A stretch of 64,000 bases of DNA from Spirometra erinaceieuropaei (Eukaryota; Platyhelminthes; Cestoda; Diphyllobothriidea; Diphyllobothriidae), in contig CACRXP010000016.1 of the NCBI GenBank assembly GCA_902702965.1, positions 2,518,208 to 2,582,207 of the forward strand, written 5' to 3'. Made by a program: the position numbers and the translations under genes. Each line of letters starts with the position of its first letter. The stretch's first letter is position 1. The notes beneath the pieces were generated by a model. That model saw nothing but the letters and a program-made list of their open reading frames with translations, was not told where the DNA came from and ran no database searches. Shown here one piece after another: positions 3,811 through 61,279 of this stretch.

Positions 3811-3866
3811 TCCAGCCCACCGAGGCGCCGAGATTTTCACAGTTTGGTCAATATGAATAATTCAGT
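3811..3866 (+). repeat. SINE-B tRNA-like 3' end, inverted fragment
   Basis: A fragment with 'cccaccgaggcgccgag', 'ttcacagtttggtcaatat' and 'gaataattc' lies in the opposite orientation directly after the minus-strand copy. It repeats the head-to-head arrangement seen at 1986-2085. Confidence 0.7.
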
Positions 3867-9052: not shown

Positions 9053-10039
9053 CATACCCCGGAAAAAATGTTTCAAACTTTTTGAAATGTTGCTTTTCAA
9101 CTTAATGAAGTTTGAAATGTGCCCGAGGGATTGACGCATTGATTTTAATTTTGAATTTTTTTGCCTACCCCTTTTATGTCAAACAGTAAAGTACAAACAT
9201 GTGGTAATGTCCTTACTGTGTTCTTTGAAATGCAGATCAAAAAAGTGGTATTACCTGCTTTTACTCTAAAAATGAGCTCTAAATTTGCCCAGGGGGAATG
9301 CCTTTATTATGCGATTTGAAAAGCCACAGCTTATCATCCGATTAATCGCCTTGGCAAACGTTTCTGCGGTCTGTTTTTGCTCGAACTGACAACGGAGGAG
9401 CGGCAGCAGTATCTGTTTGAAAAATATATGACTTTACTTCAAGAGAATGCGGTTTCTGAATTAGGTACTTTTGGATTTGTAGATAGGACTGTACAATGAA
9501 AAGCATTGGCGAAATGCCCGCGAATATTTGAATTGATGAAAGATCGCCGTCAGCGAGGACGGCCTTTTAGCAAATGGTAGTGATCTTACTGTCCCTGCAG
9601 CAACATCGACCGCACATCGGTTGGCCTGGCCATTTGTGGCACTGTGGATAACCAACATGCTATAGTTTGTCCGTTATGAGCTCGTTTTCCACACTTGGCA
9701 ATAAATTTTGGTTAAGGTTATGCATAAGCAGTGTAACATCTTCAAAAGTCAAACAGTATTCATTTACTGGATGTTCCTATTCCACTGCAAAGCGTGTCAA
9801 GAAAGACAAACATTGACCAGAGAGGTTACAAACCAGTGCCTTTCGAAGGATCGCTTATCTTCCCGACAATCCCCACAATCCTTCACCCACACAGTCTCTT
9901 TCGTTTTCACCACAGGGCCAGGAGTCCTTGGCATTGATCCCAAAATACCATGTACGCCAGGTTTCCTGCTTCCTAAATACTGGCTTTTGCAGGTCAGTAG
10001 TATACACACTATTTTCAAGTTCAGCGAATATTCCCATGT

Positions 10040-11393: not shown

Positions 11394-12387
11394 CAGTAAT
11401 TGGGCTAACTCACAAAATGTCAACCTAAATTCCGAAACGTGTCTTCGTTTCGAAATGATTAATAAAGTTGGATTGCAAAACTTGTCAGCCTGCGACATAG
11501 TTCTATAATATTTCTGTTACCGGACGACGCCGGCTTTCGGACGAACTTCCTTTTGACTGCATATAAAAATATCACTTTGTAAAAAATGACTACTGATGTG
11601 GCATGCATTTTTCTCATTGATTTTCAATGACCCTTAAAGTTAAATTATATTTCAAGGAAAACATGCATAAGTATTTGCGTTCTTTTTCTCATTTGGTAGA
11701 CAACTAGGTCTTCTTCAAAGCTTACATTCGAAAAAGGGTATTATTTGGTTTTCAAAAACTTTTCAAATTTGCGAATAAATTTGAACCCGCTCTACCGTTA
11801 CACTTGGGTTCAAGGTTTGAAAACTACAAGCCGTATATTTTCCGCGAACGGAAAATCACGCTTTTCTTTACGGTACCAAAGGCGGACTTTAAAGGGTTCA
11901 TAAAATTTAACAGTGGATTTTATCCATATAGTTAACTTTACGAGGCACATTGGCAAATGCAGAGATATGACGATTTATGGACGGCCATTTCAAAGCATTT
12001 AAAGTCCCACAATTAGAAACCTTTTCAAAACCAGATTCTACCTTTTGTCCGAGTACAAAATTAGAGGCAGACGTAATTAGCTACTGAATTAGCAAAAAAA
12101 TGAATATGTTTATGAATGTTTTCCATGAAATATAATGCGACTTTTAGGGACATCAAAAATCAATGAGAAAAAATCATGCCTCTCAAGAGGTAATTTTTTA
12201 CAGAGTGTAGTTTTTGCATGCATCCAGAAGGAAGTTTACTCGAAAGCCGGCATCGTGAGGTAACTAAAATATTGTAGAATTATGTTGCATGCTGCTTAGT
12301 TTTACAACCCTATGTAATTTATATTTTCTAAACGAAAACGCATTTGGGAATTTCGGTTGTTATTTCATGAGTTAACCCACCGTCCAA
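11394..12387. mobile_element. foldback MITE, subfamily H, copy H1
   Basis: The left end is TA followed by CAGTAATTGGGCTAACTCAC. The right end carries the inverse of the subfamily terminus (tttcatgagttaacccacc), with the last bases decayed. The two halves are inverted copies over about 375 bp each, with an unpaired middle of about 250 bp. No open frame resembles a transposase. CAGT...ACTG ends and a TA target are typical of Tc1/mariner-type non-autonomous elements; that assignment is inference. Confidence 0.8.
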
Positions 12388-13358: not shown

Positions 13359-14334
13359 CAGTGAGTGACCGATCTCATGAAATGTTGGCTGAAATTCTGT
13401 AATGTGTTTTCGATTAGGAAGGTTTACTTAGGTGGGGTTGAAATATGCATTATCATGGGACACAGTCTTAATACATTTCGGACTCGACAGGATGTCAGTG
13501 TTTGAATGCTCTATCTTTTAACCTTATTTAGAAACCTTACTCGGTAACAGATGACTACTAAAGTAGCATGCATTTTTACAATGACTCCCGATGGTCTTGT
13601 AAATTTAAATATACAGTATATAAACCCCGAACAAAAATATGCTTTCTTTCAGTCGTTTAATAGGGAAATAAATCGTCTTTATATGTTATATTCGAAAAGG
13701 GAATATAATTAGGTTTTTAAAAAATTTTCTTATTACCGAATAATTTGGAGCATGGTCAGCCGTTGCATTAGTGCTTAGTGATTTCAGTCTAAAACGTTCA
13801 TGTGTTCCCCTTAAAGAACATCGCATGTAAGAAGATAATACAAAGTATTCATAAAATTTTGCAATGGATATGAATCATGTTGTAAATTTTATGAGGACTA
13901 GTGGTATACAATACGATGCTGTATGAATGGACATTGCATGGTCTTAAAAATATCATAATTAGAAACTTTTTTCAAAACCTAATTATATACACTTCCTCTA
14001 GCATAAAATATAAAGACGACGTGATTCTCTATCAAACGACTTAAATAAAGCATATTTTTGTTCGGGGTTTCTTTAAAATATATTTGAATTTGCAAGATCA
14101 TCGAAAATTAACGTTAGAAATGTATGCTGATTAAGTAGTCATTTCTTAACAAATGTGGTTCTTGCGGGAGGTTTAAAAGCACTGCATTTAAAAGTTGACG
14201 TTCTGCCGAGTTCGAAATATTCTATAATTATGCCGCGAAAAAATCAGTTTTGCAACCGCGCTTAAATAATCCTTCCTAATCGAAAACTCATTTCAAAATT
14301 TCAGTCAACATTTCATGAGATTGGTCACTCACTG
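13359..14334. mobile_element. foldback MITE, subfamily K, copy K1
   Basis: It starts TA + CAGTGAGTGACCGATCTCATG and ends GGTCACTCACTG + TA (14335-14336). The termini are inverted and the inner halves pair for several hundred bp. It shares the 'tgaaatgttggctgaaattc' block with K2 and K3. It has no coding capacity. Confidence 0.85.
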
Positions 14335-18772: not shown

Positions 18773-19180
18773 CAGTGACAAATCTAATGAAATAGTAACC
18801 AAATTCTGAAATGCGACCTCGATTAGAAAGAATGACTTAATTTGAATCAGGCCAGGATTCCGGCCTTTAAATACACTTTTCCGGCCGCCTGTGAAGACCG
18901 CACTAGGTAAAAAAATAGAGTGACTTTTAACTGCTTTTCGAGGCCCCTATTAATTCAAATATAGTTGATTAAAAATAGTTACAAATATCCACTTTTGAAC
19001 TTTCGTGCTAGCAAATCACATCTATTTCAAATATGATATTTGGATAAAGGTCCTCTTTTGGTTTTAAAAGTTCAAAACTATGAGACTTTTAAGACCGTGA
19101 AGTGACCATTTAAGTAAATGCACATAATCTCGTTTATCAATGTTCCTTAAAAAATACACAGTATAGTTCACATTTACTGC
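18773..19180. mobile_element. foldback MITE, subfamily K, truncated copy (K5)
   Basis: TA (18771-18772) is followed by CAGTGACAAATCTAATGAAA and then 'aaattctgaaatgcg', the K left terminus. The later 'ctaggtaaaaaaatagagtg' corresponds to the inner K block. No matching right terminus is found before the PLE-1 copy begins, so the element is truncated. Confidence 0.55.
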
Positions 19181-19184
19181 GAAA

Positions 19185-19529
19185 TGGTCGGTCCGTCGGT
19201 GTTATTGCACCCTAATACTCCAGTGCCAACAGTGTTGCATTAATTTCGCGTGTCAGCGTTTTTACGGGGTTGGTTTCAAATAGGACATGAAACTTGCGAT
19301 TTTTGACTTTCTGAAGGTAGTCTGTACTGTTCAGTTCAACGATTGAGCGACCCTAGTACGCGGCACGATGACGATGTCCTTGTCGTCATTGAGTCCTCTT
19401 AGTACATCGCGTTCGACATTTTGGAGTATTTTTCGTGGTTTGTGAGTCATAGGCATGGACGGAACTTTGTGTCGGATAAGGTTCTTCGTATCCCACACCA
19501 AGTGTCGTCCCTCCCTATACATCATAAGC
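19185..19529 (-). pseudogene. PLE-1 N-terminal segment, inverted (5' inversion)
   Basis: Read on the minus strand, 19529 to 19185 encodes the region before the RT core: NVERDVLRGLNDDKDIVIVP, then after a frameshift TDYLQKVKN, TNPVKTLTREINATLLALE, a stop, and GAITPTDR. The adjacent plus-strand copy starts with MARAYETSLVRFYSLP, which is the next block of the same protein. The segment is therefore the inverted 5' part of the 19531-21200 element. It is non-functional. Confidence 0.75.
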
Positions 19530-19772
19530 CATGGCGAGAGCCTACGAAACGTCCTTGGTCCGATTCTATAGTCTCCCCATGGTGTACAAGGAGTGCGCTC
19601 CTCTCCGGGCCACTGTATCGCTCAAAAACCCTCCAACGTACAGACTGGCAAAATCGCTGTTTCGACACCTCAAATTTCTGACCGCTGATTCGGATAGCAT
19701 CGCCTGTTGGTCAACATAATTCCCGGAGAAGCTTAAACGAGACCGTCGAGCTACTCCTGCGAAGCAAATACA

Positions 19773-20762
19773 ATGAAACGGAGAATCGTCTCGGACATGC
19801 CCAAGTCCTTCAGATTCTCAAGGTTCTGTCTCAGGACATACTTAACGTGTGACGGAGCAATTTACGAGCAGGTAAAGGGAACACCACTGGGCTCGCCGAT
19901 TTTGGGATTCATCGTCGAAGCGGTAATAAATCCATTAGAGTCGCTGATCTCCCAACACCACAGACAGAAATTCTGGACTCCGTATGTGAACGATACCTTC
20001 GTCGTCATCGAACGGGATCAGGTGCCAACGTTCAAAGAACGTCTCAACACCGTCTTCCCTGACATACAATTTACGATGGAGGGGAAAGAAAATAACCAGC
20101 TGGCATTCCTTGATGTTCTCGTCTGTCGCAAACCCCGTGGTGGCCTAAAGACAAAAGTGTTCAGAAAAGTGACGAACACGACGCACATACTTAACTACAA
20201 CAGTAGCCACCCAAACAGCCACAAACGCAGTTGCATAAGAACGTTATATCGGCGTGTTGAGAGGTACTGCAGTGAACCAAAAGACATGGTTGCAAATCCC
20301 AATATCTTCGACTGGTTTTTAGAGAAAATGGTTACCCGCGCAACTTCCTTAACCGGAGCATGCGCAAACGAGACGAGCGACAAAATCCCTGCCGAACCCA
20401 AATTCTGGCGGGCGATCTCGTACATCAAGAACGTCTGCGAGGCCGTTAGCTGCCTTCTTGCACCACTTGGGGTTGGAGTTGCACACAGACTGGAGGCCAC
20501 CATAAGGCGCCAGGTGATGAGACCGAAAGACCTACTGCCACGGCAAGAAACATCTAGAGTCGTTTACCGGATCTGGCACAGTTGCGGACAAAGCAACTAC
20601 GTCAGAGAAACTGAAAGACTGCTCCGGACGGGAATTGCCGAACACGCGGCAGCGGTACGGAGAAATGACGCCAACTCTAAGATAGCGGCCTATTCGACGA
20701 GACCCGGCCACACATCAAGCTTGAAGAGGTCGAAATTCTTGCGAGAGGGGATAATCGCGTGA
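19773..20762 (+). pseudogene. PLE-1 RT-endonuclease frame (329 codons), inactive
   Basis: This is an open frame of 329 codons covering part of the reverse transcriptase, the thumb and the GIY-YIG endonuclease of a Penelope-like element. The upstream part of the RT (motif A region) lies before 19773 in other frames, beyond a stop. Key points seen: VKGTPLGSPI (motif B-like), YVND (motif C; the first catalytic Asp is Asn), AFLDVLVCRK, HILNYNSSHPNSHKRSC, then GIY-YIG as VYRI...SNYVRETERLL, where the family reads VGETGR. The loss of catalytic residues in both domains indicates a dead copy. The nominal ATG is internal and not the native start. Confidence 0.9.
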
Positions 20763-21064
20763 GCTGCGAGTAGCTTGAGTCATGCTTTACGGGACTTCAG
20801 CCTATCAACAAGTGCAAAGACATTCCCATTCCATATTCCGTGCTGAGGCATAGGCTGGCCAAATTAATTGACCATTCGGAGAGAGCGTAAGCCGGTGAGC
20901 CAGATGGCCGAGCAATAATCCCGCCAACACGGGTGATGAGATTTTAGCAAGTAACAACTTGCATGCCGACCATCAAGCAATAAGTGCACCAGTGGGAAAC
21001 AATCCTCGATGAAGGGACGCGCGGTTAATTAATATAAGAATGCGGTAGTATAGCGACTGCACCC

Positions 21065-21160: not shown

Positions 21161-21239
21161 GCCCTTGTTCCAGCCGTCGCCTTCACTTTTGATCAAAATG
21201 GATACTGTGATTCCGTTACTCGTAAAACATAAGCTTATA

Positions 21240-21475
21240 AGGGTGCTGAAAATTTATGCCAAAATCCATACTTCTTAAAAGGCCATTGTTACCGAATTGG
21301 TTTTGACAGGTGGCCGCAGAAATTGATTTCAAAGACCGGACTAGTTGCATGAGTGGCATACTTTGGAATTACTCGCCCTAATAATGAATATTGCAAACTT
21401 ATTTGAGCAATCTGTCCAAATAGAAAACAAATTTCGGATTCTCGATCATTATTTCATGAGGGCGGTCGCGACTGA
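21240..21475. mobile_element. foldback MITE right-end fragment (K-like)
   Basis: Near 21430-21475 the order 'aaatttcggattctcgatc', 'atttcatgag', 'ggtcgcgactg' follows the K right terminus (aattt..tcaacatttcatgagat.ggtcactcactg), diverged. The left part is missing or unrecognisable. Confidence 0.4.
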
Positions 21476-26028: not shown

Positions 26029-26080
26029 TGCAATATATGTATGTATATATATGTATCGCACATATATATATGTATATATT
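26029..26080. repeat. (TA)n/(TG)n-rich microsatellite
   Basis: An impure ATATATGTATATATA tract lies directly left of the palindromic cluster. A matching TA tract lies at its right end (27276-27295). Confidence 0.85.
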
Positions 26081-26185
26081 CACTCAAGAATGGGCGCACA
26101 CCGATCCATTGGCTTCCCGAAGCAAACAAGCTTCGTATGGGCGATAGGGGTCACGGACAGGCAACCACCTACCAGGCCGAAGTCG
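26081..26185 (+). repeat. repeat X1, left terminal copy
   Basis: It begins 'cactcaagaatgggcgcaca' and contains 'ccattggcttcccgaagc'. It is the inverse of 27176-27280 and the outer left arm of the cluster. Confidence 0.75.
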
Positions 26186-26197
26186 GCCAAGCTATGA

Positions 26198-26442
26198 TAG
26201 CAGAGCGGATACGACAGAGTCTGGGGGGTAGATTGATACAGCACTGTTTCGGGCTTGTTTGCCTTCATTCAGCCAACCACAACCCTGACCACCAGCAGCT
26301 GGGACCAGAAACACAAACATGCGCACAGACGCAGCTGGCGCAGATGGTCCACCACTGGGGTCTACCAGATGGGTCATAAGCACTTCATCGAACCGAAGTT
26401 CATCAGTGCCTCGCCACCCGCCATTCTCTGTCGCTGCAGATC
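26198..26442 (+). repeat. repeat Y, sense copy 1
   Basis: It runs from 'gagcggatacgacagagtct' through 'cagcactgtttcgggctt', 'ccagcagctgggacc' and 'cgaaccgaagttcatc' to 'gtcgctgcagatc'. It is about 90% identical by eye to 26942-27155. Confidence 0.8.
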
Positions 26443-26450
26443 AAGGTATT

Positions 26451-26577
26451 TATTTACTCAGGAATGGGCGCACGCTGATCCATTGGCTTCCCGAAGCAAA
26501 CAAGCTTCGTGTGGGTGATAGCGGTCACGAACGGACAACCGCCTACCAGACCGAAGTCGGCTAAGCTATGATAGCAG
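26451..26577 (+). repeat. repeat X1, internal copy
   Basis: This is the same as 26081-26185, preceded by 'tatttatttactcag', showing that X1 directly follows Y in a tandem unit of about 370 bp. Confidence 0.75.
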
Positions 26578-26656
26578 ATGAGGGAGACGACGGAATACGG
26601 AGTTGTTTGCATGGATCTGACTGGCTGACTGAAAGCAAACAAGTGAAAAAATACCC

Positions 26657-26905
26657 GATCTGCAGCAACAGAGAACGGCAGGTGGCGAGGCACTGATGAA
26701 CTTCGGTTCGATGAAGTGCTTATGACCCATCTGGTAGACCCCAGTGGTGGACCATCTGCGCCAGCTGCGTCTGTGCGCATGTTTGTGTTTCTGGTCCCAG
26801 CTGCTGGTGGTCAGGGTTGTGGTTGGCTGAATGAAGGCAGAATAAGCCCGAAACAGTGCTGTATCAATCTACCTCCCAGACTATGTCGAATCCGCTCTGA
26901 TATAT
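26657..26905 (-). repeat. repeat Y, inverted copy
   Basis: This is the reverse complement of the Y unit, beginning 'gatctgcagcaacagagaac' and ending with 'acagtgctgtatcaatc' and the 'agactatgtcgaatccgctc' block. Confidence 0.8.
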
Positions 26906-26941
26906 ATATAACAGCAAGGAAGGACGACAGAGAATGCGGGT

Positions 26942-27155
26942 AGATTGAAACAGCACTGTTTCGGGCTTATTCTGCCTTCATTCAGCCAACCACAACCCTG
27001 ACCACCAGCAGCTGGGACCAGAAACACAAACATGCGCACAGACGCACCTGACGCAGTCGGTCCACCACTAAGGCCTACCAGATGGGTCATAAGCACTTTA
27101 TCGAACCGAAGTTCATCAATGCCTCGCCACCTGTCATTCTCTGTCGCTGCAGATC
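26942..27155 (+). repeat. repeat Y, sense copy 2
   Basis: This is the third copy of Y, again followed by 'gggtatttattcaatcagga'. Confidence 0.8.
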
Positions 27156-27175
27156 GGGTATTTATTCAATCAGGA

Positions 27176-27280
27176 AAAGCCTGGTAATTGGTTGCCTGTT
27201 CGTGACCTTTGCCACCCATACGGAGCTTGTTTGCTTCGTGAAGCCAATAGATCGGTGTGCGCCCTTTCCTGATTGAATAT
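27176..27280 (-). repeat. repeat X1, right terminal inverted copy
   Basis: 'gttgcctgttcgtgacc', 'gcttgtttgcttcgtgaagc' and 'atcggtgtgcgccc' are the inverse of the left X1. A TA tract follows. A more decayed minus-strand copy lies at about 32449-32520. Confidence 0.75.
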
Positions 27281-27875
27281 ATATATATATTATTAGGGCA
27301 GTTAGGCGGATGGACCCGTTGTCTCTAGTGGCGGAGCACTGCGCAAACTCTGGACACGCGTTCGCCTTCCAGAATGCTGAAATCCTAGGCCGAGGAAATA
27401 ACCGCATCACCAGGGAAACAATCGAGGTCTGGCACACTAGCGCGAACTCCATCAACCGCAGCGTAGCGCTTCCTGAGGCTTACCAGGCTCTCCGGACGCA
27501 GCTCAGTGAACAGAAGAGCAGAGTCAGGCTACGACAAGACAGAAACCCAAGTACGGCCGAGTCCATGGGGACACACGCGCAACTGTACTTCCATGCGAAT
27601 CTGACGAAGGTGCGATCGTCACTACAGCCGCGCCGTCCACTTATCTGGCAGGAGCGAGGACGACCGATCGCAGTAACGCTAACGGACCCGATGAAGGTGC
27701 TATCATCACTGCCACTCATGCGGCAGGTGAGAACACAAGTGGCTGCGGGTTGACAAAGAAGATTGCCAGCCTAGGACGAGAGCTAAGGTCAATGCAAACA
27801 CGTGCGATGACAGCTAGCGTCCAGACGACAGCCCCCGAGTAGACGCGAACCCGTTGTAACAAGATCGTCACCGCC

Positions 27876-31164: not shown

Positions 31165-31495
31165 TTTTTTAAAATTCATATTGACCCAACTGTGAAAACC
31201 TTGGTGCCTCGGTGGGATTCGAACCCACTCAGTAAAGGGGCGGCTTTAGTACAGCCAACGCTCTAACCACTTGAGATACGAGGCCCTGTCGGACGACGCG
31301 GATTTAATCAAATTTGCGTCAAGTTAAACATCCAACATACTGCAACGTCTGGAATTCACCAAATCTGATACAGTAAAGTGACTGCCTAAGCAGGATTTCC
31401 TAAGTAATTTAACTAGAATCCTCCAGATGACTACCAGGCTCACGTAATTCATAGATGTTTTGGCAGATTTTGAATGATTCATATTGACTCAACTA
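31165..31495 (-). repeat. SINE-B copy, complete with terminal block
   Basis: 'cgtattgaccc'-type end, tRNA-like part (about 31203-31286) with B box 'ggattcgaacccac' on the plus strand, conserved body and terminal 'ttggcagattttgaatgatt'. It is among the best preserved copies. Confidence 0.85.
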
Positions 31496-33155: not shown

Positions 33156-34016
33156 CAGTGAGTGACCTATCTCATGAAATGTTGGCTGAAATTCTGAAAT
33201 GCGTTTTCGATTGGAAAGGATTACTTGGTCGCGGTTGTAATACTGACTATCTTGCGGCATACTCTTATCCCATTTCGGACTTGGCAGGATGTCGGCTTTT
33301 GAATGCTTTTCTTTTCAATCTCCTGTAGAAAGCGTACTCGGTAAAAAATGACCACTTAAGTAGCATGCTTTTTTCCCACTGATTTTCGATGGTCTTTGAA
33401 AATCAAATATGTTTTATAGAAATCACAAAAAAATATGCTTCCTTTTTGTCAATCAATAGAGAATCACGTCTTCTTTATATTTTATACTTAAGGAAGGAGT
33501 ATAATTAGATTTTAAAAAAAGTTTCTAATTCTGAGACTTTGTATGACAGCGATATGTCCATTCACATAGCATCGTACCTGGCCGTTTACCACTGCTCCTC
33601 ATGAAATATACAACATGGTCCGCATTCATTGCAAAAGTTTATGGACTTTGTATGATATCACTTTAATGACATAGAAAAATATGGGATTTTCTTTACGCGG
33701 AGACGTGATTCTATATTGATGGGATAAAAGGAAGCATATTTTTTTGTGATTTCTATAAAATATATTTGAATTTGCAAGACCATCGAAAATCATTGGGAAA
33801 AATGCATGCTACTTAAGTAGGCATTTTTCACCGAGTACGCTTTCTACAGGAGATTTTAAAGAAGTGCATTTAAAAGCCGACATTCTTCCAAGTCCGAAAT
33901 AAGATAAAAGTATGCCGCAAGATAGTCAGTTTTACAACCGCGACCAAGTATACCTTCCCAATCGAAAAAGCATTCCAGAATTTCAGCCAACATTTCATGA
34001 GTTCGGTCACTCACTG
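33156..34016. mobile_element. foldback MITE, subfamily K, copy K2
   Basis: TA + CAGTGAGTGACCTATCTCATG at the left, GGTCACTCACTG + TA at the right (34017-34018). At 861 bp it is shorter than K1 and K3, through loss in the middle. Inverted halves share 'gaaatgttggctgaaattct' and its complement. Confidence 0.9.
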
Positions 34017-34660: not shown

Positions 34661-35664
34661 CAGCAGGTGGGCTTACTCATTGCACATAACGCATGAAATG
34701 TCAAGCGAAATTCCGAAATGTGTTTCCAGCTCGAAAATATCAATTAAGTATGGTTGTAAAACTGGTCAGCCTGCAACATAATTCTATAATATTTCAGTTA
34801 CCTCATGATGCCGGCTTTCGAATGAAATTCCATCCGGCTACATACACAAACTACAGTCAGAAAAAACTTTCTACTTATTTAGCATGAATTCGTCTGGTTG
34901 ATTTTTGATGTCCCTAAAAGTCCTATTATATTTCATGAACAACAAGCATAAAAATAATCGTTCCACTGCTCATTCGCTAGACAATTACGTCTTTTAATTG
35001 TATACTCAAAGAAAGTTATTGTTCGGTTTTCGAAAACTTTTAAAATTCCCGACTAATTTTGAATTAGCTCTGCCGTCATTGTTGTATTAAGGATTTCCAA
35101 ACTGCAAGTAGTATATTTTTGGTGTACGGAAAACCAAATATCGCTCTACAGTATTAAGAGGAGACCGCATAGGGTTCATAAAATTTAGAATTGACCTTGA
35201 TCCATATTGTCAACTTTACAAACCACATTGGTAAATGCAGAGACATGACGATTTATGAACGGCTATTTCACTGTATTAAAAAGTCTCACAATTAGAAACT
35301 TCTTTAAAAACGAATTATGTCCCTACTTCGTGTATTAGATTGGAAGGAGACGTAAGTTACAACCGAATGAGTAAATAAATGAATATTTTTATGCATGTCT
35401 TCAATGAAATATAGTAGGACTTTTAGGGGCATCGAAAATCAACGAGACAAGTCCATGCCAAATTAGTAGTCATGTTTAACGAATTATAGTTTCGTATGCA
35501 GCCGGGAGAAAGTTCGTTCGAAGGCCGGTATCCTGAGGTAACTGAATTATTATAGAATTAAACTGCAGGTTAATTAGTTTTACAATCATACTTGATGAAT
35601 CTTTCTAAAACGAAAATACATTTCGGAATGTAAGTTGACATTTCATGAGTTAGCCCATCTACTG
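34661..35664. mobile_element. foldback MITE, subfamily H, copy H2 (intact ends)
   Basis: TA (34659-34660) + CAGCAGGTGGGCTTACTCAT at the left; GAGTTAGCCCATCTACTG + TA (35665-35666) at the right. It is 1004 bp. Arms of about 380 bp pair with each other (for example 'ataattctataatatttcag' against its inverse near 35545), around a loop of about 240 bp. No transposase frame. Confidence 0.9.
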
Positions 35665-35666
35665 TA

Positions 35667-36605
35667 TCTGCCTCGTCTCTTTTTATTGGTCCATGTCTGG
35701 CGTTTGAATTTGACCACATATGTTGTAAGTATACGCCAAAATAACTCGCATATCGTAGGTCTGAATGGGCTTCTTAGTTGTCTCAGAGTCGTCAGAAGAA
35801 GCATGCAACAACTGGGTAACCAAGACCTCGTTCGCTGTAGTTTCGGACTGGGCAATTCTTTGAGTGTTGCAAGATTTACGATCTCGTGCAGATTGTGAAA
35901 AATCCATTAATCACTTCTGGGCTCATAAAATTAAGTCCACTTTGATGAGATGTGCCCTAGTTTTCTCATCGTCGGCGTGGAATAGATTTTCCACTTAATC
36001 ATATTCCTTGCATTCTGCTTACTGTCTTCTACACAACTTTCAATAGCCATTTTCAGCGCATCTATCTAAGCGAAGGTAATAACGACAATCGTTTTTCTTA
36101 AATTTTTGGTAGTTAGACCGTCGAAGGCAGCTGAGAGCTACTCAGGGTAAACGCAGCGTATACCCTCTCCTTCCTCACCAAACTTACTCCGATGACAAGA
36201 CTGATCTAAGCCGACCAGGAGTGAGTTCTGGCTGACAAAGCCTAACAAGCCCTGTCCCCATGCCACGCACGACCTGATTCCCGCAGAATGTACCAATTTG
36301 GCACACGGATGGCTCGGACTTTACCCAACTTGGAATGCCGCAAGTGCAGCGCTAGGAAGGATCCGTCTGCTGTCGCCCATCCGAACCACAACTCCCAGCT
36401 CATCGCGTGAGATTTCAACGTACCACCTATATTATGGTGAAAATGCCATTGATTGGCAGTGAGCATGGGTTTCCTAGTGTAGTCTTCGATTTGTTTGTCG
36501 CCTAATATTTTCCAGCAGTATGCCCGAGTCGGGAGTTTATTGACTTTGCAGTGCGACAGTGCGAACTGTTTAAAAGAAGACGAAGGCACGATCACTGGGA
36601 CGGTA
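35667..36605. other. no recognisable gene
   Basis: Minus-strand frame 36242-36649 overlaps the PLE-3 tail and has no domain. Other frames are short. Confidence 0.35.
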
Positions 36606-36607
36606 AA

Positions 36608-36652
36608 TTTATTGGCCTTAGCTTTCGAACTCGAACATGAGTTCATCATCAG
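36608..36652 (-). ncRNA. hammerhead-like motif, PLE-3 tail (minus)
   Basis: On the minus strand: CTGATGA (36646-36652), perfect stem II GAACTC/GAGTTC (36639-36644 with 36627-36632), GAAAG, then 'ctaaggccaataaa'. The stem sequence differs completely from PLE-1 but pairs perfectly, which is strong evidence for selection on structure. Confidence 0.6.
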
Positions 36653-36680
36653 AGACTGCTAGGGTGCAGCAACGTGGGAA

Positions 36681-36688
36681 CATTTATA
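36681..36688 (-). promoter_or_regulatory. TATAAATG box in PLE-3 tail
   Basis: On the minus strand the variant box lies 28 bp before the CTGATGA core. Confidence 0.35.
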
Positions 36689-36701
36689 TCGTTGTGCCGT
36701 T

Positions 36702-36711
36702 GGGGGGGGGG
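36702..36711 (+). repeat. G10 homopolymer in PLE-3
   Basis: A run of ten G lies just upstream (minus-strand sense) of the TATA-like box. Confidence 0.9.
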
Positions 36712-37689
36712 ACTACGCCCGTGGCTAGGTCTGGTTTGTGCTGCATGGCCCACAATGGTCCCTCGGCGTGGTTACGGCGTTTGTTCTTCGCGGCGACGTG
36801 AGCTGCGTCACCTGGTGGCGTGGGCGGAAGCGTGATAACACGCAGGCAAATCAGTGCGTCTATTGATAGAGTTGGTTTCCCACACCCACGCCTCTAACAG
36901 TTCTCGCTCCGTCTTTCAGCTGGCTCGCGCCAATATCCGCGTGTTGGCGAAGTCGGACTCCTGGCCTTCCCCCAGCGTGTGAGTGACGACTTGAGATAGT
37001 GAGTCGCCTCTCCGAACGGCCTGTTTGTGCTGAAGTATTTGTCAGCTGAGACGTCGTTCTGTTTAGCCTGTGTAGTGGCAAGATCAGTTATGGCACGGAA
37101 GTTGATAGACTACGCCCGACTGCTCGCCTGCGTCCAGCCGATGCTTCATTTTCATGATTCTGCTTCGCATGGTGGCGGCCGGGTGATGAGCGATGCCCAC
37201 GCCTAACTCTGACGCAGTGCGTTCTGTAGCCTCGGACACATTCTTTATGTACGGTAGGGACTGCCAAATTGTTGGTGTCTGTCTTCCGTTTGTCCGTCGT
37301 GGGTGCGTGCGTATGCAGCGGCTGACGAAACTATTTGGGTAGCCGTTCTCTGTTTATTGCTCCTGGAGATGCCGTAATTTTTGCATCCTTCCTTCGGGTT
37401 TGCTACAATGCGTTTTTACCAGGTCGAAAAGCGCTCTCGCACAGCCCCGTTTGAGCACCAATAGGTTTTTGCTATGATAGTTGAGGGCTTGGGTTGTATT
37501 GGTCGCCTTTTTGTACACTGTAATGCTGAGCTCACCGTCAGGTGTGCGCGTGACGAGCACGTCCTGGAAGGGTAGTTTCTCGTCTTCTCTTGTAAGCTGA
37601 ATGTCGGAGAAGATGCTGTTGAGCAAGTCTTGAAAACCCGATTGCCTGTCCTTTTCAATAAATGTTCACAGGTTGGTGCACTCTAGCAA

Positions 37690-37760
37690 TCTCTGATGAT
37701 AAATTCCATTTCGAGTTCGAAAGTTAGGGCCAATAAATCTACGGTCCTAGTGAACCTGCC
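37690..37760 (+). ncRNA. hammerhead-like motif, inverted PLE-3 tail copy (plus)
   Basis: CTGATGA (37693-37699), stem II AATTC/GAGTT (37702-37706 with 37713-37717, one G-T pair), GAAAG, then AATAAA (37732-37737) and the family end 'ccttcgtcttctttt'. It lies immediately right of PLE-3 but on the opposite strand, so PLE-3 is bounded by inverted tails. Confidence 0.6.
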
Positions 37761-38547
37761 TTCGTCTTCTTTTGAACAAGAACCTGGGCTGCGCATATTC
37801 CCCTTCATTAGTGTGAACGGTCTTTATCTCACTTGAACAGAAATTAAGCTGGACGAATCAATTTGCGCCAAGAAGTTCTCTTCGTAGTACTTTAATTTTT
37901 TATACGTAATTGCATTTCTCAAGATAGCAACTGCATTCAATATCAAATTTTTGCATTTGCTTTATTGATGTGCCCTTTGTAAACTTCTATGCCCACCCTT
38001 AATCCATTTAAAGATGTGGAATTTTAAGGGCGAGGTTAACCTGTCTATTTCTGTTTTCTTTAGAAAGCATTTTTTGAATTCTTAGATGGAATTTTCCTTT
38101 GATTATTACCCTAGTCTATATTTATTCTCGAGAATGTAGCCTGAGGAGCACTATGCCCTTATGAAAGTCAGGACCCCTAGTGACATGCTAATAACTTACC
38201 TGTCAGTTTTGCTGAAGTCCTTTCACTGATGTCTGGCCTAGAAACAACCATCGGCTGGCAAAAAATATTTGGACAGAGTCCCATCCATCAAGCAGGCTGT
38301 CCAGGATTGATGGCTTCTTGGAGGGCTGAATGTTGAAAAAAGAAGGCGCGAAAAACTTTCGAAAGAAACGGGAAATAGTCAATTTAAATAGGCTTGGGGT
38401 AAGATATTATACGCACAGCCACTTATGGAATTGACTACTTTTTTCAATGTTGTTTTGAAATATTATGTACATGCGTAAGGACAGCAAATAAGCCAGAAAT
38501 CGCAATTCCTGTGTTTCTGTCTCTGTCGACAACTACCCTTCAATAAA
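37761..38547. other. no recognisable feature
   Basis: AT-rich DNA between the inverted PLE-3 tail and MITE K3. No gene is recognised. Confidence 0.35.
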
Positions 38548-39540
38548 CAGTGCGTGGCCTATCTCATGAAATGTTGGCTGAAATTCTGAAATGCGTTTTC
38601 GATTAGGAAGGATTACTTGGTCGCGGTTGAAATACTGACCATCTTGCGGCATACTCTTATAACATTTCGGACTCGGCAGGATGACGGTCTTCAATGCACT
38701 TCTTTACAATCTCCTGTAGAAAGTGTACTCGGTAAAAAATGACAACTTAATTAGCATGCATTTTTCCTATTGATTTTCGATGGTCTTGCAAATTCAAAGA
38801 TATTTTATAGAACCCATAAATAAAAATATGCATTCTTTTAGTCAATCAATAGAGAATCACCTCTTCTTGATATATTATACTTAAGAAAGGAGTATAATTA
38901 GGTTTTAAAAAAGTTTTCTATTTGCCGAAAAATTTGGAGCCTGATCATTCGTCGCATTAGCGCTTAGTGATTACACTCTACAAGGTGCATGCGTTCCGCG
39001 TAAAGAAAATTCCATATTTTTCCATGTCATTAAAGAGATATTATACAGGGTCCATAAAATTTTGTAATGGATGCGGACCATGTTGTACATTTCATCAGGA
39101 GCAGTGGTAAACGGCTAAGTACGATGCTATGTGAATGGGCATATCGCGGTTTTAAAAAGTCTCATAATTGAAACTTTTTTAAAACCTAATTATGCTCCTT
39201 TCGTAAGTATAAATTATAAATAAGACGTGATTTTCTATTGATTGACTAAAAGAATGCATATTTTTGTGTGTGGTTTCTATAATATATATTTGAATTTCCA
39301 AGACCATCGAAAATCAATGGCAAAAATGCGTGCAACTTATGTAATCATTTTTTACCGAGCACACATTCTACAGGAGATTGAAAAGAAGTCGTTTTAAAAG
39401 CCGACATCCTGCCGAGTCTAAAATGTTATAAGAGTATGCTTTATGATAATCAGTATCACAACCGCGACCAAGTAATCCTTCCAAATTGGAAACGCATTTC
39501 AGAATTTCAACCAACATTTCATGAGATAGGTCACGTACTG
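38548..39540. mobile_element. foldback MITE, subfamily K, copy K3
   Basis: The left end is CAGTGCGTGGCCTATCTCATG (flank AA instead of TA); the right end is GGTCACGTACTG + TA (39541-39542). It is 993 bp with long inverted halves. K3 is nearly identical to K2 over 'gaaatgcgttttcgatt.gg'. Confidence 0.9.
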
Positions 39541-43085: not shown

Positions 43086-43789
43086 GTGGGTCCTTTGTTT
43101 TTTCTCTAGTCACCAGAATCACTATCCCTCATATGCTGGGATTGGACTCGAGCGGCTGATGCAATGAGCCTGCGCCAGTGCGTGCCCCCTCCACCCCACG
43201 TGTACCACTTGTCATGGGATACGCGTAACCTGCCCTAACCTCTTCCCCGTGTTGGCCTAACGCATTTACCGCGTTGCCCGTTGTGGGGGCACAACAGCCC
43301 GCCCAAGGGTTTCACGCGACCTTGTTCCCATAGCGTATACCAGGCCTATCTCACATGCGTGGGAGCGCCATAAGCGAGTCATTAAGCCTGACTCTCAGCC
43401 CTCCTGTTAGTGACTCCACTCACATACGCAGTCTTGACCACAGAAACCGAGTTATCCGGCCAGTTAGCACCCTTCTAAGCCACGACTTCTAGCACTTCCT
43501 GGTAGATCCAAGCGCGCCAGACTTATTATGGTGAGAACAAAATTACACACGTGGCATATCACAAAATGTCGTGAATTTCGCTGGAAAGATCCTGCAACGC
43601 AAAATTCGTCCATACCACGTCCCCCAAAGTTTTACAGCAATAAAGAAACGACTGTCCTTCAAAAGAAGGCAGTTGAGTTTATAAGTTATCCACTAACTTA
43701 AAAATAAATCCTTTTTACAGAAAATCAGTATTTTAGAGAAGGGCTATATTACATGTCGCTTTATTAAGGCTAAGTGGGGTGGGTTCACG
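43086..43789. other. putative NUP54 intron start; no other gene seen
   Basis: It begins with a donor-like GTGGGT. A GC-richer stretch 43105-43520 looks different from the AT-rich background and may be an unrecognised repeat. I find no coding similarity. Confidence 0.35.
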
Positions 43790-44337
43790 TAATGGTCGTG
43801 GTGGTCGCTCACTTGCTTGCAGGTGAGACTGCGCCTAGCGTCCACTTGCTGGCACTCAACTCTCACCTGTGGCTCCACGTAGCTGGGCTCTGCTCAGCGG
43901 CCACACCCCGGGCAACCGTCTCGACCGGCGGGCTAAACCAGGTGAGGGGGCCCTGTGCGCTGTGCCGTGTGCACAGGGTTTGCGGATTCCGCTGGATGGA
44001 AGGTCGGATGGAACCTTGCGTCGGCACCGTCGTGACGTGGTTCGTCTCTGCACGTCGCTCGACAGCCGGTGACGGGATGGATCTCCACATCGACACCGCC
44101 TTGACGCGCCCACCTTCGCCGACGGAAACCGCGGCTTACGGCGAATTCGAGTCGCTCTCCACTACAACCCGAAGTCGTGGTCCCATAGTGGAGTTCGGCC
44201 GTGCCACACCGGCACATGGCAGCCCTATTCAGGGATGGCACTGCCAGCCCCCACGAGGGGAAGGGCCTAGAAAAGGTGGCCTAAACATTGCTGGGTACCA
44301 CGCCGTCTCCAGGCTAGCCAGGGCCGCAGACGTCTAA
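43774..44337 (+). other. 187-codon frame in the 5' region of the RTE-like element
   Basis: The frame is Gly/Arg/Pro/His-rich in its second half (GWHCQPPRGEGPRKGGLNIA near its end) and has no domain I recognise. The two other plus frames and the minus strand are also fairly open, as expected of a GC-rich 5' UTR. It could be ORF1 or non-coding 5' UTR. It ends with TAA at 44335, four bases before the frame that leads into the endonuclease. Confidence 0.4.
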
Positions 44338-44977
44338 ACATGGTCGAAACAATGAAAATCGAAAAAACAACAATACCAATAACAACAACAACAACAACCA
44401 TACTCATTCTCCTCATCCTACCTCTTCTTCCTCTACCTCCGTCTATTCTTCTGCCTATTCTTCTCCTTCGTCATCTTCTCCATCTCCTTCCCGTCGCCCC
44501 ACTCGTTGTCACCAGACTGGCAGGGTGAGCGCGCTCACTCTGGCAGCCTGGAATGTTCGTTCCCTTTTAGACAATCCGAGGAGCAACCGACCGGAGCGGA
44601 GGACGGCGCTAGTGGCACGAGAACTGGCGCGCTACAAGGTGGACATCGCCGCACTCAGCGAGACCCGTTTCTCCGAACAAGGCCAACTGGAGGAGGTAGG
44701 TGCCGGCTACACCTTCTTCTGGAGCGGTCGACCCAGGGCAGAGCGACGAGACGCGGGCGTCGCCTTCGCCATTCGGAACGACATCGTGGGACGACTGCCC
44801 TGTTTGCCGCAGGGCATCAACGATCGCCTGATGAGCCTCCGCCTGCCTCTCTGGGGAGGCAAATTCGCCACCATCATCAGCGCCTACGCTCCGACGATGA
44901 CCAACCCCGACGCCGTCAGAGACAAATTCTACGAGGACCTGCACGCCCTCTTGGCGACTGTGTCGAAGGCGGACAAG
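43790..44977 (+). mobile_element. RTE-like non-LTR retrotransposon 5' end
   Basis: A GC-rich block distinct from its surroundings. It has a 5' region with a 187-codon frame (43774-44337), then a coding low-complexity linker and an endonuclease frame. The element is cut by the N at 44978 and continues with unrelated repeat F, so the reverse transcriptase is absent from the assembly. Confidence 0.8.
44318..44977 (+). pseudogene. APE-type endonuclease (EEP) of an RTE-like element, truncated by N
   Basis: From about 44525 the frame encodes [47 protein letters not shown], and AIRNDI ... SAYAPTM. This is the endonuclease/exonuclease/phosphatase fold: Asn of WNVRSL and Glu of LSETRF are the first two catalytic residues. 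The later GDFN and SDH motifs are missing beyond N. Upstream in the same frame, 44339-44520 encodes an Asn-rich then Ser-rich stretch from (AAC)n and CT-rich DNA. That frame is open back to a TAG at 44315 with no ATG, so translation would need an upstream start, frameshift or reinitiation. Length here is about 150 residues against several hundred for the full protein. Confidence 0.85.
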
Positions 44978-44978
44978 N
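44978..44978. other. single undetermined base (assembly join)
   Basis: The only N in the window. Sequence to its left is RTE-like endonuclease; to its right is repeat F. It most likely marks a scaffold join with lost sequence and not a one-base ambiguity. Confidence 0.75.
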
Positions 44979-45140
44979 GGAGGAGAGAGTGTAGGTAGAT
45001 GCTACGCAAGTCTACCGGCACTATAAACCCCTGCGTAAGTCACCGTCCCTGCTCCCATTGCTGCTGCAACTGTGGGGCACACGGTGGACATCATCGAAAC
45101 CGATGGTCGAACTGTCAAGTTCATAGCGAGGCTGTATACA
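44979..45140 (+). repeat. repeat F, second copy
   Basis: It has 'ggaggagagagtgtagg', 'atgctacgcaagtc', 'gcacacggtggacatcatcg' and 'ggtcgaactgtcaagttcat'. It matches 5565-5705. 'agttcatagcgagg' also occurs at 42649. Confidence 0.65.
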
Positions 45141-49189: not shown

Positions 49190-49740
49190 AGTTCGAAGGC
49201 TCGAAACAATAAACAAACTCAGAAGACGAGGTGGCAAGCATGCGTAGCTTTCGATTAATTGTCTTCGGGCCCGTACAGTTATACGGGAACGGAGATGAAG
49301 TAAAACATGTCAGTAATAAGACAAATCGATTAAAGTTCGTCTAAGGACACAGGCGGGGATGTGGGAATGTGGGGGATTGATGGGGGTGGGGGGGGGTAAT
49401 AGTAATCAGCGTCAGGGACGGGGTGAACGGAAGGGCGCGAACAAATGCAGCGTTAGTCCATCTTCGACCACTGCATGCCCGGAGCCCGAATGTGGTTTTT
49501 CTGTGCGCATAAGATGGGCTTTCGTAATCTGATGGCGAACGCTTCTGCTGTTGCTAACAGGCGCTGGCACAGAAGCTTAGGATAGCTCGACGGGACCTTA
49601 TATATCATACGAAAGGCTTCCTTGGGGGCCACACGATGTCCGGAATCGACAACATGCGCGAGAATGGCGCTGTTTATGCTCCTCGTTTTAAGGTGAACGT
49701 TTTCACCGATTTCTTATATCGCTAAAATATTTTTAGTTCT
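49190..49740 (-). mobile_element. PLE-P 3' end, left arm (minus)
   Basis: On the minus strand: INSAILAHVVDSGHRVAPKE, AFRMIYKVPSSYPKLLCQRL, LATAEAFAIRLRKPILCAQK, then a stop and a 3' UTR with C-rich tracts and 'cgaactttaatcgattt'. It is the post-GIY-YIG tail of a PLE. It is inverted relative to 49870-50280. Confidence 0.75.
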
Positions 49741-49869
49741 ACCCCGTTCCCTTATTCTCGCCACCTTATCTTCTGGTTTTCTATATGGTTGAGTTCTGAA
49801 ATGTGACCTAGACGACCATCTTCATGAAATTGAACGTCCAAATCCCAGACTTCCTCAATATGCTCCGAT

Positions 49870-50280
49870 TCAGTTTTATTATGGACATCATGTAGACTCA
49901 AAAGAAGCGTTTCTTGTGATCTATAGGGTCCCAACAAGGTATCCTAAACTACTGGGCCAGTGCCTGTTAGGAACAACAGAGGCGGCCGCCATCAGGTTAG
50001 GAAGGCCCACCTTATGCGCACAGAAAAACCACGTTCAGGCTCCGCGCCTACGGTGGTCGAAGGTCGACTAACGCTGCAACTCTCTGCACCCTTCCCCCAC
50101 TCATCTCGCCCCTGACACTGACTACTATTACCCCCCCCCATCCCCATCCCTCCCCCACATTCCCATATTCCCGCCTGTGTTTTAAGGCGAACTTTAATCG
50201 ATTTATCTTATTACTGACATGTACGGTTCCGACGATAATTTATTGGAAGCTAGGTACGCCCTCCACCTCGTCTTCTGATT
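49870..50280 (+). mobile_element. PLE-P 3' end, right arm (plus)
   Basis: Plus strand: HHVDSKEAFLVIYRVPTRYP, KLLGQCLLGTTEAAAIRLGR, PTLCAQKNHV, then the same C-rich 3' UTR and 'cctcgtcttctgatt'. It pairs with 49190-49740 as a head-to-head inverted repeat. Confidence 0.75.
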
Positions 50281-51214: not shown

Positions 51215-51915
51215 ATTCTCCTAATTTTGACAAACTGTGACATGTACAAATCGAAATTCTGAAACATGCTTTTGACTAGAAATAAGTACTTAGACGGGGC
51301 TGTAATATTGACTATCGTCCCAAAATATTTCATTCAAGACTGAATGTCGGCTTCCATATGATCTTCAGGACAGCCATCTGCAGAACTACTCTCGATAAAA
51401 GTGGCTACTTAAGTAATGTGAATTTTTTAAAAGTATCTTGTGAAAAACATGCACAAAATTAGTTTTACTATAGTCGCTTGTTAAAAAAATATGTTTTTAT
51501 ATTTTTGGCCTACAGAAGAGGTATCTTCCGGTCTTAAGAAATTTTTTTAATTCCCAATAATTAGCAATCTACCCTGGAGTCACATTCGCGCAAAGGGTTT
51601 CCAAACTGCATGCTGCACACATTTTTTGTAAGAAAATCACACATTTCTCTAGGTTATTTAGAAAATGCTATCTAAATCTCGGACAATTTTGCAATGGATA
51701 TGGAAAATATTGTGTAGTTCCTCGGTAAAACTAATAATAAAACAGGTACAATGCTATGTGAGTGGCCACCTCGCAATCTTGGCAGGCCTCATAATTCCTA
51801 ACTTTTTTAAACTTAAAATTCCTTTTTTTCGCAAGCACAACGCTTTAAAAAGACGCAATTTACTACCAAATGCTAACAAAAACGAGTACTATTATGCATG
51901 TTTTCCATAACAAAA
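51215..51915. mobile_element. foldback MITE, K-like, left part (L)
   Basis: 'aaactgtgacatgtac', 'aaattctgaaacatgctttt', 'actatcg.cccaaaatatttc' and 'tggctacttaagtaatgtg' follow the K left arm in order but diverged. The right arm is mostly missing after 51910. Confidence 0.55.
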
Positions 51916-52530: not shown

Positions 52531-53494
52531 CAGTAGTTGCGCTAACTCGCGATATGTCAACCGAAACTACGAAAACCGTTTTTGTTTTGAAAGAATAATT
52601 AAGTAGGGTTGTAAAACTTATCAGCCTACAGAATCATTCTATAATACTGCAGTTACCGCTGAATGCCGGCCTACGAATGCACTTCCTTTCAGTTGAATGA
52701 AAAACTACACTCTGTTAAAAATTAATACTTAAGCATCATGATTTTTTTTTCATTTATTTTTGTTGCCCCAAATGTTCAATTATATTTCACTGAAAACATG
52801 CATAACACTATTCGTTATTTCGCTCATGCGGTAGGTAATTACGTCTTCTTCCAATCTTATACTCGAAGAAATAGTATTATTCCGTTTTCAGAAACTTTTT
52901 CAATTACCGAATACTTTTGAACCCGCTCTGTATTCAGGGTTTCAAAACTACGTGCAGTATAATTTCCACATACGGAAAACCATACATTTCTTTACAGAAG
53001 AAAGAGAAGACCATATAAGGGTTCATAAAATTAAGCAATAGATTTGATCCATATTGTTAAATTTACGAGCTACATTGGTAAATGCAGAGGCATGGCGATT
53101 TATGAAGGGTCATTTCAAGATACTTAAAAGTCCCAAAATTAAAAACTTTTTAAAACCCAATTATATCCCTCCTTCAAATATAAAATTACAAGAAGAAGTA
53201 ATTATCTACCGAAGGAGCAAAAGAAGAAATATTTGTATGCATATTTTCCAAGAATTATAATTGGACTTTAGGGACATCGAAAATGAATGAGAAAAATGCA
53301 TGCTACTTAAGCAGTCATTTGTTACAGGGCACAGATTTTATGCAGCCAGAAGGAACTTCGTCCTGAAGTAATTGAAATATTACATAATTATGCTGTACGA
53401 TGATTAGTTTTACAACCCTACTTAGTTGATCTTTTCAAAACGAAAACACATTTTGGAATTTCTGTTGTTATTTCATGAGTTACCCCACCTACTG
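52531..53494. mobile_element. foldback MITE, subfamily H, copy H3
   Basis: TA + CAGTAGTTGCGCTAACTCGC at the left, GAGTTACCCCACCTACTG + TA (53495-53496) at the right; 964 bp. Inner halves pair as in H1 and H2. Confidence 0.9.
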
Positions 53495-56824: not shown

Positions 56825-57776
56825 CAGTAGTTATGCTATCCCTTAAAACGGTTAGCTGTAATTCCCAAAGATATTTTTGGTTAGAAATGAGTATTTAAGT
56901 AGGGTTACGAAACTAACCACTGCGAAGCATAATAGCAAGATATTTCAGTCACGTCAGGATTTGGGCTTGCAAAAGCTCCATTATGTAATAACTGGCGGCA
57001 TACATGGTACGACATTTTTTTTAAACTCGATTTTCGGTGCCCTTATAAATTCGGATATATTTTATAGAAAACATGCGGAACATTTATGTTTGGTGCCCAT
57101 TTAAGGACTAATGACATTTTCTCTAAATCAGGTCCCTGAAAGAGGCGTATCTTCCAATTTTTAAAGCCGCCTTAATAACCAAACTACTTTTAACCTGACT
57201 TGATATTGTACTCATATTTATAGTTTATAAATTGCAAGATGTAGACTTATCCTGTAAGGAAAATCCCCCATCCACATATTCCGTTAAAAAGATGTCATAT
57301 ATTGTTTGTAGGATTTAAAATGGCTGTAGACCATGTTATATACTTCATAAGCAACATTAACAGACGTATGGATATAGCGATTTATAGGTAAATATTTTAC
57401 TGTGTTCAAAATATCATTATGGAAACTCTTTGAAGAAAAAAAATGCTCCTTCCTTAAGCATACTATCTTCAGAAATCATGAATTGTTATTAACTGCGAAT
57501 AGGAAAAATATTTTTTCGCACACTCTCTATAAAATAGAGGAGAATTGGTAGAGGTTTCGGAAATCCATAAAAATTATATACCATAATAGCACTCAATTAC
57601 TACAGAGTCTGTTTTATGAAGGCGGCCAGAAAAAAATGTCCGCGCAAAGGCGGGCATTCTGATGCGATTGAAATATCTTGTGATTATGCTGCCCATTAGT
57701 TAATACTGCAAGCTGTTTTAATCAAAGGCACATATCAGCGCTTTGATTATAATTTCAAGAGATGCCATATCTACTG
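56825..57776. mobile_element. foldback MITE, decayed H-like copy (M)
   Basis: CAGTAGTTATGCTATCCC at the left and GCCATATCTACTG + TA at the right. Inside, 'aagtagggttacgaaacta' matches the H left arm. 952 bp. Confidence 0.7.
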
Positions 57777-58349: not shown

Positions 58350-59032
58350 TCTTGCTCGAGGACTCAAGTATAATTAAGTTTACTTAGATATAATTAGGGT
58401 TCAAACAGTTTCTAACTATGATATTTTAAGGGCCGCGTAATGTCCATTCATATGTCATCGTACCGGTCCGGTTACCACTGCTTCTCATGAAATGTACAAC
58501 ATAGTCCACATTTATGGCAAAATTTTATGGACTTCATATGGTGCCCTTTTAAGACATAGGAGAATATGTGATCGTCATTACCTGGGGCGCACGCACCTTG
58601 TTGGCTAAAATCACTAAGCGTTAATGCAACGACTGATCAGGTTTCAAACTATTCGGCCATTAAAAAAACTTTTTAAAACCTAATTACACTCCTTCTTCGG
58701 CTATAAAATATAAAGACGACGTGCTTCTCCATCAAACGACTGAAAAAAACATATTTTTATTCGTGGTTTCTAGAAAATATATTTGGATTTGCAAGACGAC
58801 CGAAAATCAACATGAAAAAGACATGCTACTTTGGTAGTCATTTTTTCCGAGTACGGTTTCTACAGGAGTTTGAAAAGCAGTGTATTTAAAAGCTGACAAC
58901 CTGTCGAGTCTAAAATATCATAGGAATATTCCGCAAGATAATTAGTATCACAAACGCGCGAAAATAATCCTTCTTAATCGAAAACGCTTTTCAAAATTTC
59001 GGTCAACATTTCACGAGATCGGTCACGCACTG
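58350..59032. mobile_element. foldback MITE, subfamily K, left-truncated copy (K4)
   Basis: It ends GGTCACGCACTG + TA (59033-59034) with the K right arm. The left terminus is missing; from about 58370 the sequence is the inner K region in both orientations (for example 'cttctcatgaaatgtacaac'). Confidence 0.75.
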
Positions 59033-61270: not shown

Positions 61271-61279
61271 GCTCGGTTT

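Follow-up and report, generated by a model that had tools for sequence, protein, structure and literature searches.

Long-armed, non-coding foldback elements with Tc1-type ends in the genome of Spirometra erinaceieuropaei

Stowaway MITEs of plants are described as being mobilised by elements of the mariner superfamily. Like the families H and K reported here, they use a TA target and reach a high copy number; however, they are short elements with short ends, whereas the arms of H and K are 370 bp long. The element Tc4 of Caenorhabditis elegans is described as having an 'unusual fold-back structure', and in this it resembles H and K. Its copies, few or none of them coding, likewise occur alongside a coding variant. 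Its ends and its target are unlike those of H and K, and its copy number is far lower. Very long inverted ends, as in H and K, are also described for Galileo of Drosophila, a member of the P superfamily (PMC3573991). Copies consisting of the two arms only are reported as well, and exchange among copies and arms is proposed by its authors (PMC3573991). Galileo, however, has a P-type transposase and a 7-bp target duplication (PMC3573991), whereas H and K are of the Tc1 type and use TA.

The Bari-related MITEs of Drosophila (Tc1 group) are described with a Tc1-type terminal sequence, a TA target, an interior unlike that of the parent and no coding capacity, all as in H and K (PMC4877112). They are 77–692 bp long with inverted ends of 46–50 bp where given, whereas H and K are about 1 kb long with 370-bp arms; the set includes a single-copy 467-bp element marked as having long inverted repeats (PMC4877112). 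Among the rows listed in that source, the Bari-related MITEs do not exceed some tens of copies in any genome (PMC4877112), compared with thousands of ends for H and K.

Families H and K in the window and in the genome

The window is the whole stretch of 64,000 nucleotides that was analysed. Profile searches with nhmmer (cut-off E<=1e-3) were performed against it, using one profile built for family H from 42 copies plus the majority sequence of the family, and one for family K from 7 copies or fragments. An earlier note, made from the sequence alone, had named ten copies or fragments. All ten were recovered as one superfamily, together with an eleventh fragment, and reversed sequence gave 0 matches at E<=1e-5. 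H1–H3 and K1–K4 are members of the profiles; M, L, K5 and the eleventh site are independent matches. In their longest matches to H and K, the sites M, L and K5 reach only 59–66% identity; their profile E-values (1e-33 to 1e-68) nevertheless make the term superfamily fair. The parts sum to 8744 bp, or 13.7% of the window, and the profile mask covers 8971 bp, the excess arising because the K profile takes in about 20 bp of flank. Both values agree with the 8–9 kb estimated earlier.

Three full-length copies of family H lie on the forward strand. H2 occupies 34661–35664 (E 8.5e-290), and its arms, at about 34661–35044 and 35290–35664, were detected as inverse matches. Near its left end it has about 14 bases more than the H majority sequence (an alignment gap), and with H2 as the query most genome matches begin at query position 27. 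H1 occupies 11394–12384 (E 4.4e-292) and H3 52531–53494 (E 4.1e-265). In family K, K1 (13359–14334, forward) and K3 (38548–39540, forward) are full-length foldbacks; the K profile, which contains both, gives E 3.4e-303 and E 0, and the H profile E 9.1e-123 and E 3.1e-162, respectively. In a genome search with K3, all 40 scored places (K3 itself counted) matched at 89% or more. K2 (33156–34016, reverse) aligns to K3 448–993 plus 1–317; it has lost about 130 bp at one arm–loop border, and its arms are 90% alike. K4 (58387–59032, reverse; H profile E 5.5e-83) is a fragment of about two thirds of the element, 84% alike to the K majority 1–644.

Among the divergent members, M (56825–57776, forward) is full length and 60% alike to H, with E 1.2e-68 over H profile 1–994. 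L (51238–51909, forward) is a fragment matching H profile 20–736 (E 2e-53). K5 (18773–19186, reverse) is a fragment found by the H profile at 18784–19186 (E 1.4e-33) and by the K profile at 18773–19185 (E 9.6e-37). The eleventh site, an arm fragment absent from the earlier list, lies at 21197–21467 on the forward strand (H profile E 4.3e-14, K profile E 7.2e-16). Of the positions given earlier, the K4 start of 58350 was about 37 bp early and the H1 end was slightly off. The size range of 861–1004 bp was reproduced in the seven copies with both ends placed. The claimed TA flanks are present on both sides of H2, H3, K1 and K2, whereas K3 has AA at the left and TA at the right, M has TG at the left and TA at the right, and H1 has TA at the left only, its right end being decayed. 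In K4, TA adjoins the single intact end.

The H majority sequence, built from 20 fetched copies and H1–H3, is 995 bp long, with gap-free arms of 370 bp that are 96.5% alike and a loop of about 255 bp. The majority sequence of the K3 subfamily (K3 and five fetched copies) is 994 bp long, with arms of 370 bp that are 99.7% alike. The foldback with long arms round a loop is thus as the earlier note described it, and its finding of no coding capacity also holds: the longest stop-to-stop frame is 78 aa in H, and 56 and 50 aa in the two K majority sequences (50 aa in the K3 subfamily). The ends, CAGT at the start and ACTG at the finish, are sharp. Identity per 50 alignment columns is about 0.75–0.94 inside the element and about 0.3–0.5 outside, and the sampled copies do not align beyond the ends; such alignment is what the note had named as refuting it. 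It had also stated that H and K differ at their first 12 bases; in direct reading only four of the 12 differ. The two majority sequences are 72.8% identical overall.

The 39 fetched H copies, picked as best hits, are 981–998 bp long. In being non-coding, high in copy number, homogeneous in length and furnished with inverted ends, H and K are like MITEs; their size is about 995 bp, with 370-bp arms. Small size is a further mark of MITEs, which are described as generally shorter than 600 bp with few exceptions, and mariner-derived MITEs of 900–1000 bp are also cited (PMC4877112).

Two internal features were noticed. In the loop of the K majority, positions 536–547 repeat the terminal motif ACATTTCATGAG without mismatch over 12 bases, and the aligned stretch of H lacks the motif. 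A block conserved between H and K around CTACTTAAGTAG contains an identical run of 27 bases, compared with a mean of 19 and a maximum of 37 for the longest run in permutations; its best 40-base window has 38 identical bases, and the permutation 95% point is also 38. Divergence among copies is no lower there. The block was dropped as a candidate second binding site, since the run length is not unusual and the copies are no less divergent in it.

Genome-wide abundance was examined in an assembly of 758.7 Mb in 1932 contigs. A DNA search with H2 gave 13750 candidates. Of these, 40 were scored, among them H2 itself, and every one was full length or close to it. When up to 2 mismatches are allowed, the 39-bp H end is present 7102 times in the assembly, compared with 0 for the reversed pattern; the resemblance is not due to chance. 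For a random sample, twenty stretches of 3.5 kb were taken, each starting at position 400001 in one contig out of ten between C5 and C195. Four of the stretches consisted of N only, and 50750 non-N bases were obtained. BLAST with H and the window members covered 5374 of these (10.6%), and the H and K profiles covered 5625 (11.1%; bootstrap over stretches 5–17%). The BLAST value is the cleaner figure because two sample stretches, L078 and L085, had already been used in the K profile. These results suggest that the superfamily makes up around a tenth of the genome, on a small sample.

Other repeats were observed in the window. Five further inverted-repeat structures, with arms of about 110 to 340 nt, lie at 8332–9054, 49305–50222, 1683–2393, 26066–27290 and 36567–37778; the H and K profiles have no match at these five places, which may represent other foldback families with other ends. 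The structure at 1683–2393 has relatives at 3477–3816 and 31166–31494. The frame 63064–63798 belongs to the reverse-transcriptase-related family PF28514 (some relatives carry PF00078, one PF01541), abundant in Spirometra and Sparganum. A protein of Sparganum proliferum shares 94% identity with it; identity reaches 90% with S. erinaceieuropaei over most of the frame and is 68% with Schistocephalus solidus over nearly the full length. We take it to be consistent with Penelope-like elements. The stretches 19737–20782 and 60260–61848 resemble each other and look like the kind of element in which this frame lies. An endonuclease frame with a low-complexity start (44318–44998, PF03372) is probably part of a non-LTR retrotransposon.

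Insertion sites and Tc1-like families with matching ends

Flanks were compared for 42 H copies, namely the 39 best genome hits (L009–L028 and L049–L067) and the three window copies; 41 were readable. TA is present on both sides in 34 of the 41, and at 19 of 20 ends in ten K copies taken as top hits; apart from the window copies, both sets consist of the best-scoring hits, a choice that favours intact ends. TA is accordingly present at most sampled sites, and its absence would have spoken against the earlier proposal. A target duplication of 3–10 bp was seen in none of the 41 H copies, and this range includes the 7-bp duplication of Galileo and the P superfamily. Outside TA the target preference is symmetric. 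A is the third base before TA in 22/41 copies (p=7e-4) and T the third base after TA in 26/42 (p=6e-6), each against an assumed 28%; the counts are not fully independent, since L011 and L056 share flanks, as do L016 and L025.

Empty sites, which the earlier note had proposed to look for, were sought among paralogous repeats fetched from the same genome. The flanks of the H copy L022, joined at one TA, run through the paralogous repeat L071 with 83.6% identity over 152 columns, and the match is exact over 31 bases round the TA. This is one clean case. A second repeat, L081, passes through the joined L022 flanks with two extra bases, and the candidates for L023, L060 and L018 are weaker (62–74% alike). 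Together with the flank counts, the clean case indicates the duplicated TA target of Tc1/mariner elements. L010 is inserted within another member of the family. L011 and L056, both on contig C169, have similar flanks, which points to local duplication and could date conversion events; local duplication is also indicated by the similar flanks of the transposon pair L089/L088 (G000:C227:333868–335736 and 381478–383331).

The link to Tc1/mariner elements had been inferred earlier from ends and target, and a search for an autonomous-type element was suggested. A genome search with PF13358 (DDE_3) gave 150 scored matches. Most of the 20 best fetched loci are elements of about 1.7–1.9 kb with inverted ends of about 25–39 bp and TA flanks; one is shorter. 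Three Tc1-like families, A, B and C, were distinguished; their elements measure about 1.9 kb, and their representatives are 65–69% alike as DNA. PF13358 is above the cut-off in the loci L036 and L038, and also in the frames of L030 and L038. Family A has the ends CAGTACCTGTGC..., and its three compared copies are 96.8–98.6% identical and therefore young. For family B, with L038 as the query, 11 other copies were fetched, ten at 80–85% and one at 94% to L038; TA is present at 22 of 24 ends, L038 counted. Family C, with L036 as the query, has 39 other scored places at 81–92%. The Tc3-type helix-turn-helix PF01498 gave 21 matches, several within family C copies. The window itself contains a 3' fragment of family B at 43559–43772 on the reverse strand (72% over 221 aligned columns to L038 1620–1838, E 1.2e-29).

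Several coding copies of A, B and C have in-frame stop codons. In the family A copy L042, at about 1794–1835, the catalytic domain contains 42 in-frame nucleotides of the form GT...AG that include a CTAAC motif. According to a hand count in L042 and L030, the distance from the second D to the E is 34 residues, as in the DD34E spacing of the Tc1 group, only if this stretch is excised; the stretch may thus be a tiny intron. The family A transposase frame gave 0 matches against PDB sequences. Eight of the nine matches to a Tc1-type transposase frame are in Spirometra erinaceieuropaei, and the ninth is unnamed.

The ends of the foldbacks and of the coding families agree closely. Over 27 bases, the H end is identical to that of B at 26, of A at 23–24 and of C at 21–24. 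The K end is identical to the C 3' end at 25, to the C 5' and B 5' ends at 23, and to the others at 21–22. Any other placement of 27 bases within H or K gives at most 17. A terminal inverted repeat common to a DDE-coding element, as expected within Tc1/mariner, is thus found for both families, and the same genome contains autonomous-type elements that carry a DDE transposase domain and whose ends are almost identical, so that the inferred link is supported. The pairing of K with C appears likely from the end comparison, with a margin of two bases over the next best end. These end matches lead us to regard H and K as long-armed, non-autonomous and MITE-like. Beyond about 29 bp, low-stringency comparison of the H and K interiors with three A copies, one B copy and one C copy gave nothing convincing, and common descent beyond the ends is therefore not shown. 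The B copies (mostly 80–85% to L038) and the fetched H copies (90–93% to their majority) look similar in age.

Arms changing in concert

In the 42 H copies, the mean difference is 0.152 between the two arms of a single copy and 0.173 between left and right arms of different copies, and none of 20000 random pairings reached the observed value. The effect persists without L056, which shares flanks with L011. Between arm positions 31 and 330, 0 of 5000 permutations reached the observed value in each of three 100-base slices; at positions 1–30 (673/5000) and 331–370 (258/5000) the effect is not significant. The consensus arms are unlike at arm position 91; here both arms carry the same variant in 30 of the 42 copies (17 with one and 13 with the other), ten copies are mixed and two have a third base. 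At the loop-side position 367, the difference between left and right is retained in 34/42. The own other arm is the nearest of all 83 arms in only 7 of the 42 copies. Double changes unique to a single H copy number 18 (6.4 expected), and 11 of the 18 are complementary; these give modest support to copying between arms in place.

The K3 subfamily, which is younger, gives individual cases. L140 has 0 mismatches between its arms over 360 positions, and each arm has six differences from the majority, all six in common. The arms of L142 have five of six changes in common and those of L144 five. L141 (none in common), L143 (one) and the old copy K3 (three) are near chance. Over the six copies, the true arm pairing is the best of all 720.

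These results indicate that the arms of one copy change in concert, and therefore that sequence passes between arms. The transfer may take place within each copy where it lies, through repair or copying of the hairpin, or else in master copies that spread. Part of the signal could also arise from subfamilies with symmetric differences, without conversion within a copy.

Origin, rival explanations and meaning

We consider it very probable that H and K are long-armed, non-coding foldback MITEs of the Tc1 group, mobilised in trans through shared ends and with arms that are recopied from each other. Movement in trans by Tc1-type transposases is the most likely mode, judging from the end sequences. 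In the proposed mechanism, the Tc1-like elements of about 1.9 kb elsewhere in the genome would supply the transposase, which would bind the end of about 27 bp common to the coding element and the foldback. The foldback would be cut out and then inserted at a TA, which becomes duplicated. Its ends may be those of a coding family, either retained or gained later, with B for H and C for K; its 370-bp arms would have no recognisable inheritance from the coding element. The arms of such a near-perfect palindrome would recopy each other, most likely in the repair of a broken or hairpin-extruded element, and new copies would then begin with matched arms.

The shared ends could also be explained if H and K were ordinary MITEs, formed from Tc1-like elements by internal deletion and retaining long pieces of the parent. 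The 27–29 bp common to A, B and C are in line with this, and so are two weak matches to the 5' part of family A, at H 582–649 (E 3e-4 to 0.002) and H 735–816 (E 0.002 to 0.015). These matches, however, are absent from the B and C copies tested, neither the remainder of the 370-bp arms nor that of the loop matches A, B or C convincingly, and the inverted ends of the coding elements are only about 25–39 bp long. We think such an origin unlikely. The very long arms, typical of Galileo (PMC3573991) and of Mutator/Foldback elements such as Tm1 in the sources consulted, would be accounted for if the foldbacks were Mutator-like or of the Foldback/Galileo type in the P group, hence from a different superfamily, and only resembled Tc1. 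The TA target without any 3–10 bp duplication in 41 copies, and ends matching a DDE_3 element family of the same genome, make this extremely improbable.

The matching of the arms might be due to use rather than to recopying: a hairpin RNA with a role of its own, such as supplying small RNAs in worms lacking the piRNA pathway, could keep the arms alike. The perfect arms of L140 have a predicted fold of -719.5 kcal/mol (z -68 against 20 shuffles), the predicted transcript forming a hairpin of about 370 bp, and tapeworms are reported to be without a canonical piRNA pathway (PMC6880638). However, any palindrome folds equally well, and no block is clearly protected in the divergence among copies, so that we hold this explanation to be very unlikely. 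A bolder picture, in which about a tenth of the genome is one superfamily of self-correcting palindromes, moved by Tc1 transposases, copied from arm to arm and probably filed largely as unclassified repeat, whose double-stranded RNA feeds small-RNA silencing without piRNAs, is also quite improbable as a whole.

What appears to be new, on the reading of H and K as trans-mobilised foldbacks with recopied arms, is a Tc1-type foldback with unusually long, mutually corrected arms, in lineages that match distinct Tc1 families, and with an apparently high share of the genome. Among the titles found in the literature searched, none described H/K-type elements in Spirometra or its relatives; published repeat libraries may already contain them unnamed. 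The S. erinaceieuropaei v2.0 assembly (796 Mb, N50 821 kb) is reported with 0.53% TcMar-Tc1, 4.07% DNA elements and 21.55% unclassified repeats (PMC8166898), and Spiro_Aus1 with 1.4% DNA transposons and 24.4% unclassified (PMC12249497). Extrapolated from our small sample, a large part of these 21–24% unclassified repeats could be H and K. If the sample is right, the superfamily takes up more sequence than the published annotations of Spirometra assign to DNA transposons as a whole (4.07% and 1.4%), and the picture of a genome expansion driven by retrotransposons changes. The pairs H–B and K–C, together with the signature of arm copying, make a natural system for studying how foldback arms arise and persist, and for asking whether silencing draws on long hairpins in animals without piRNAs.
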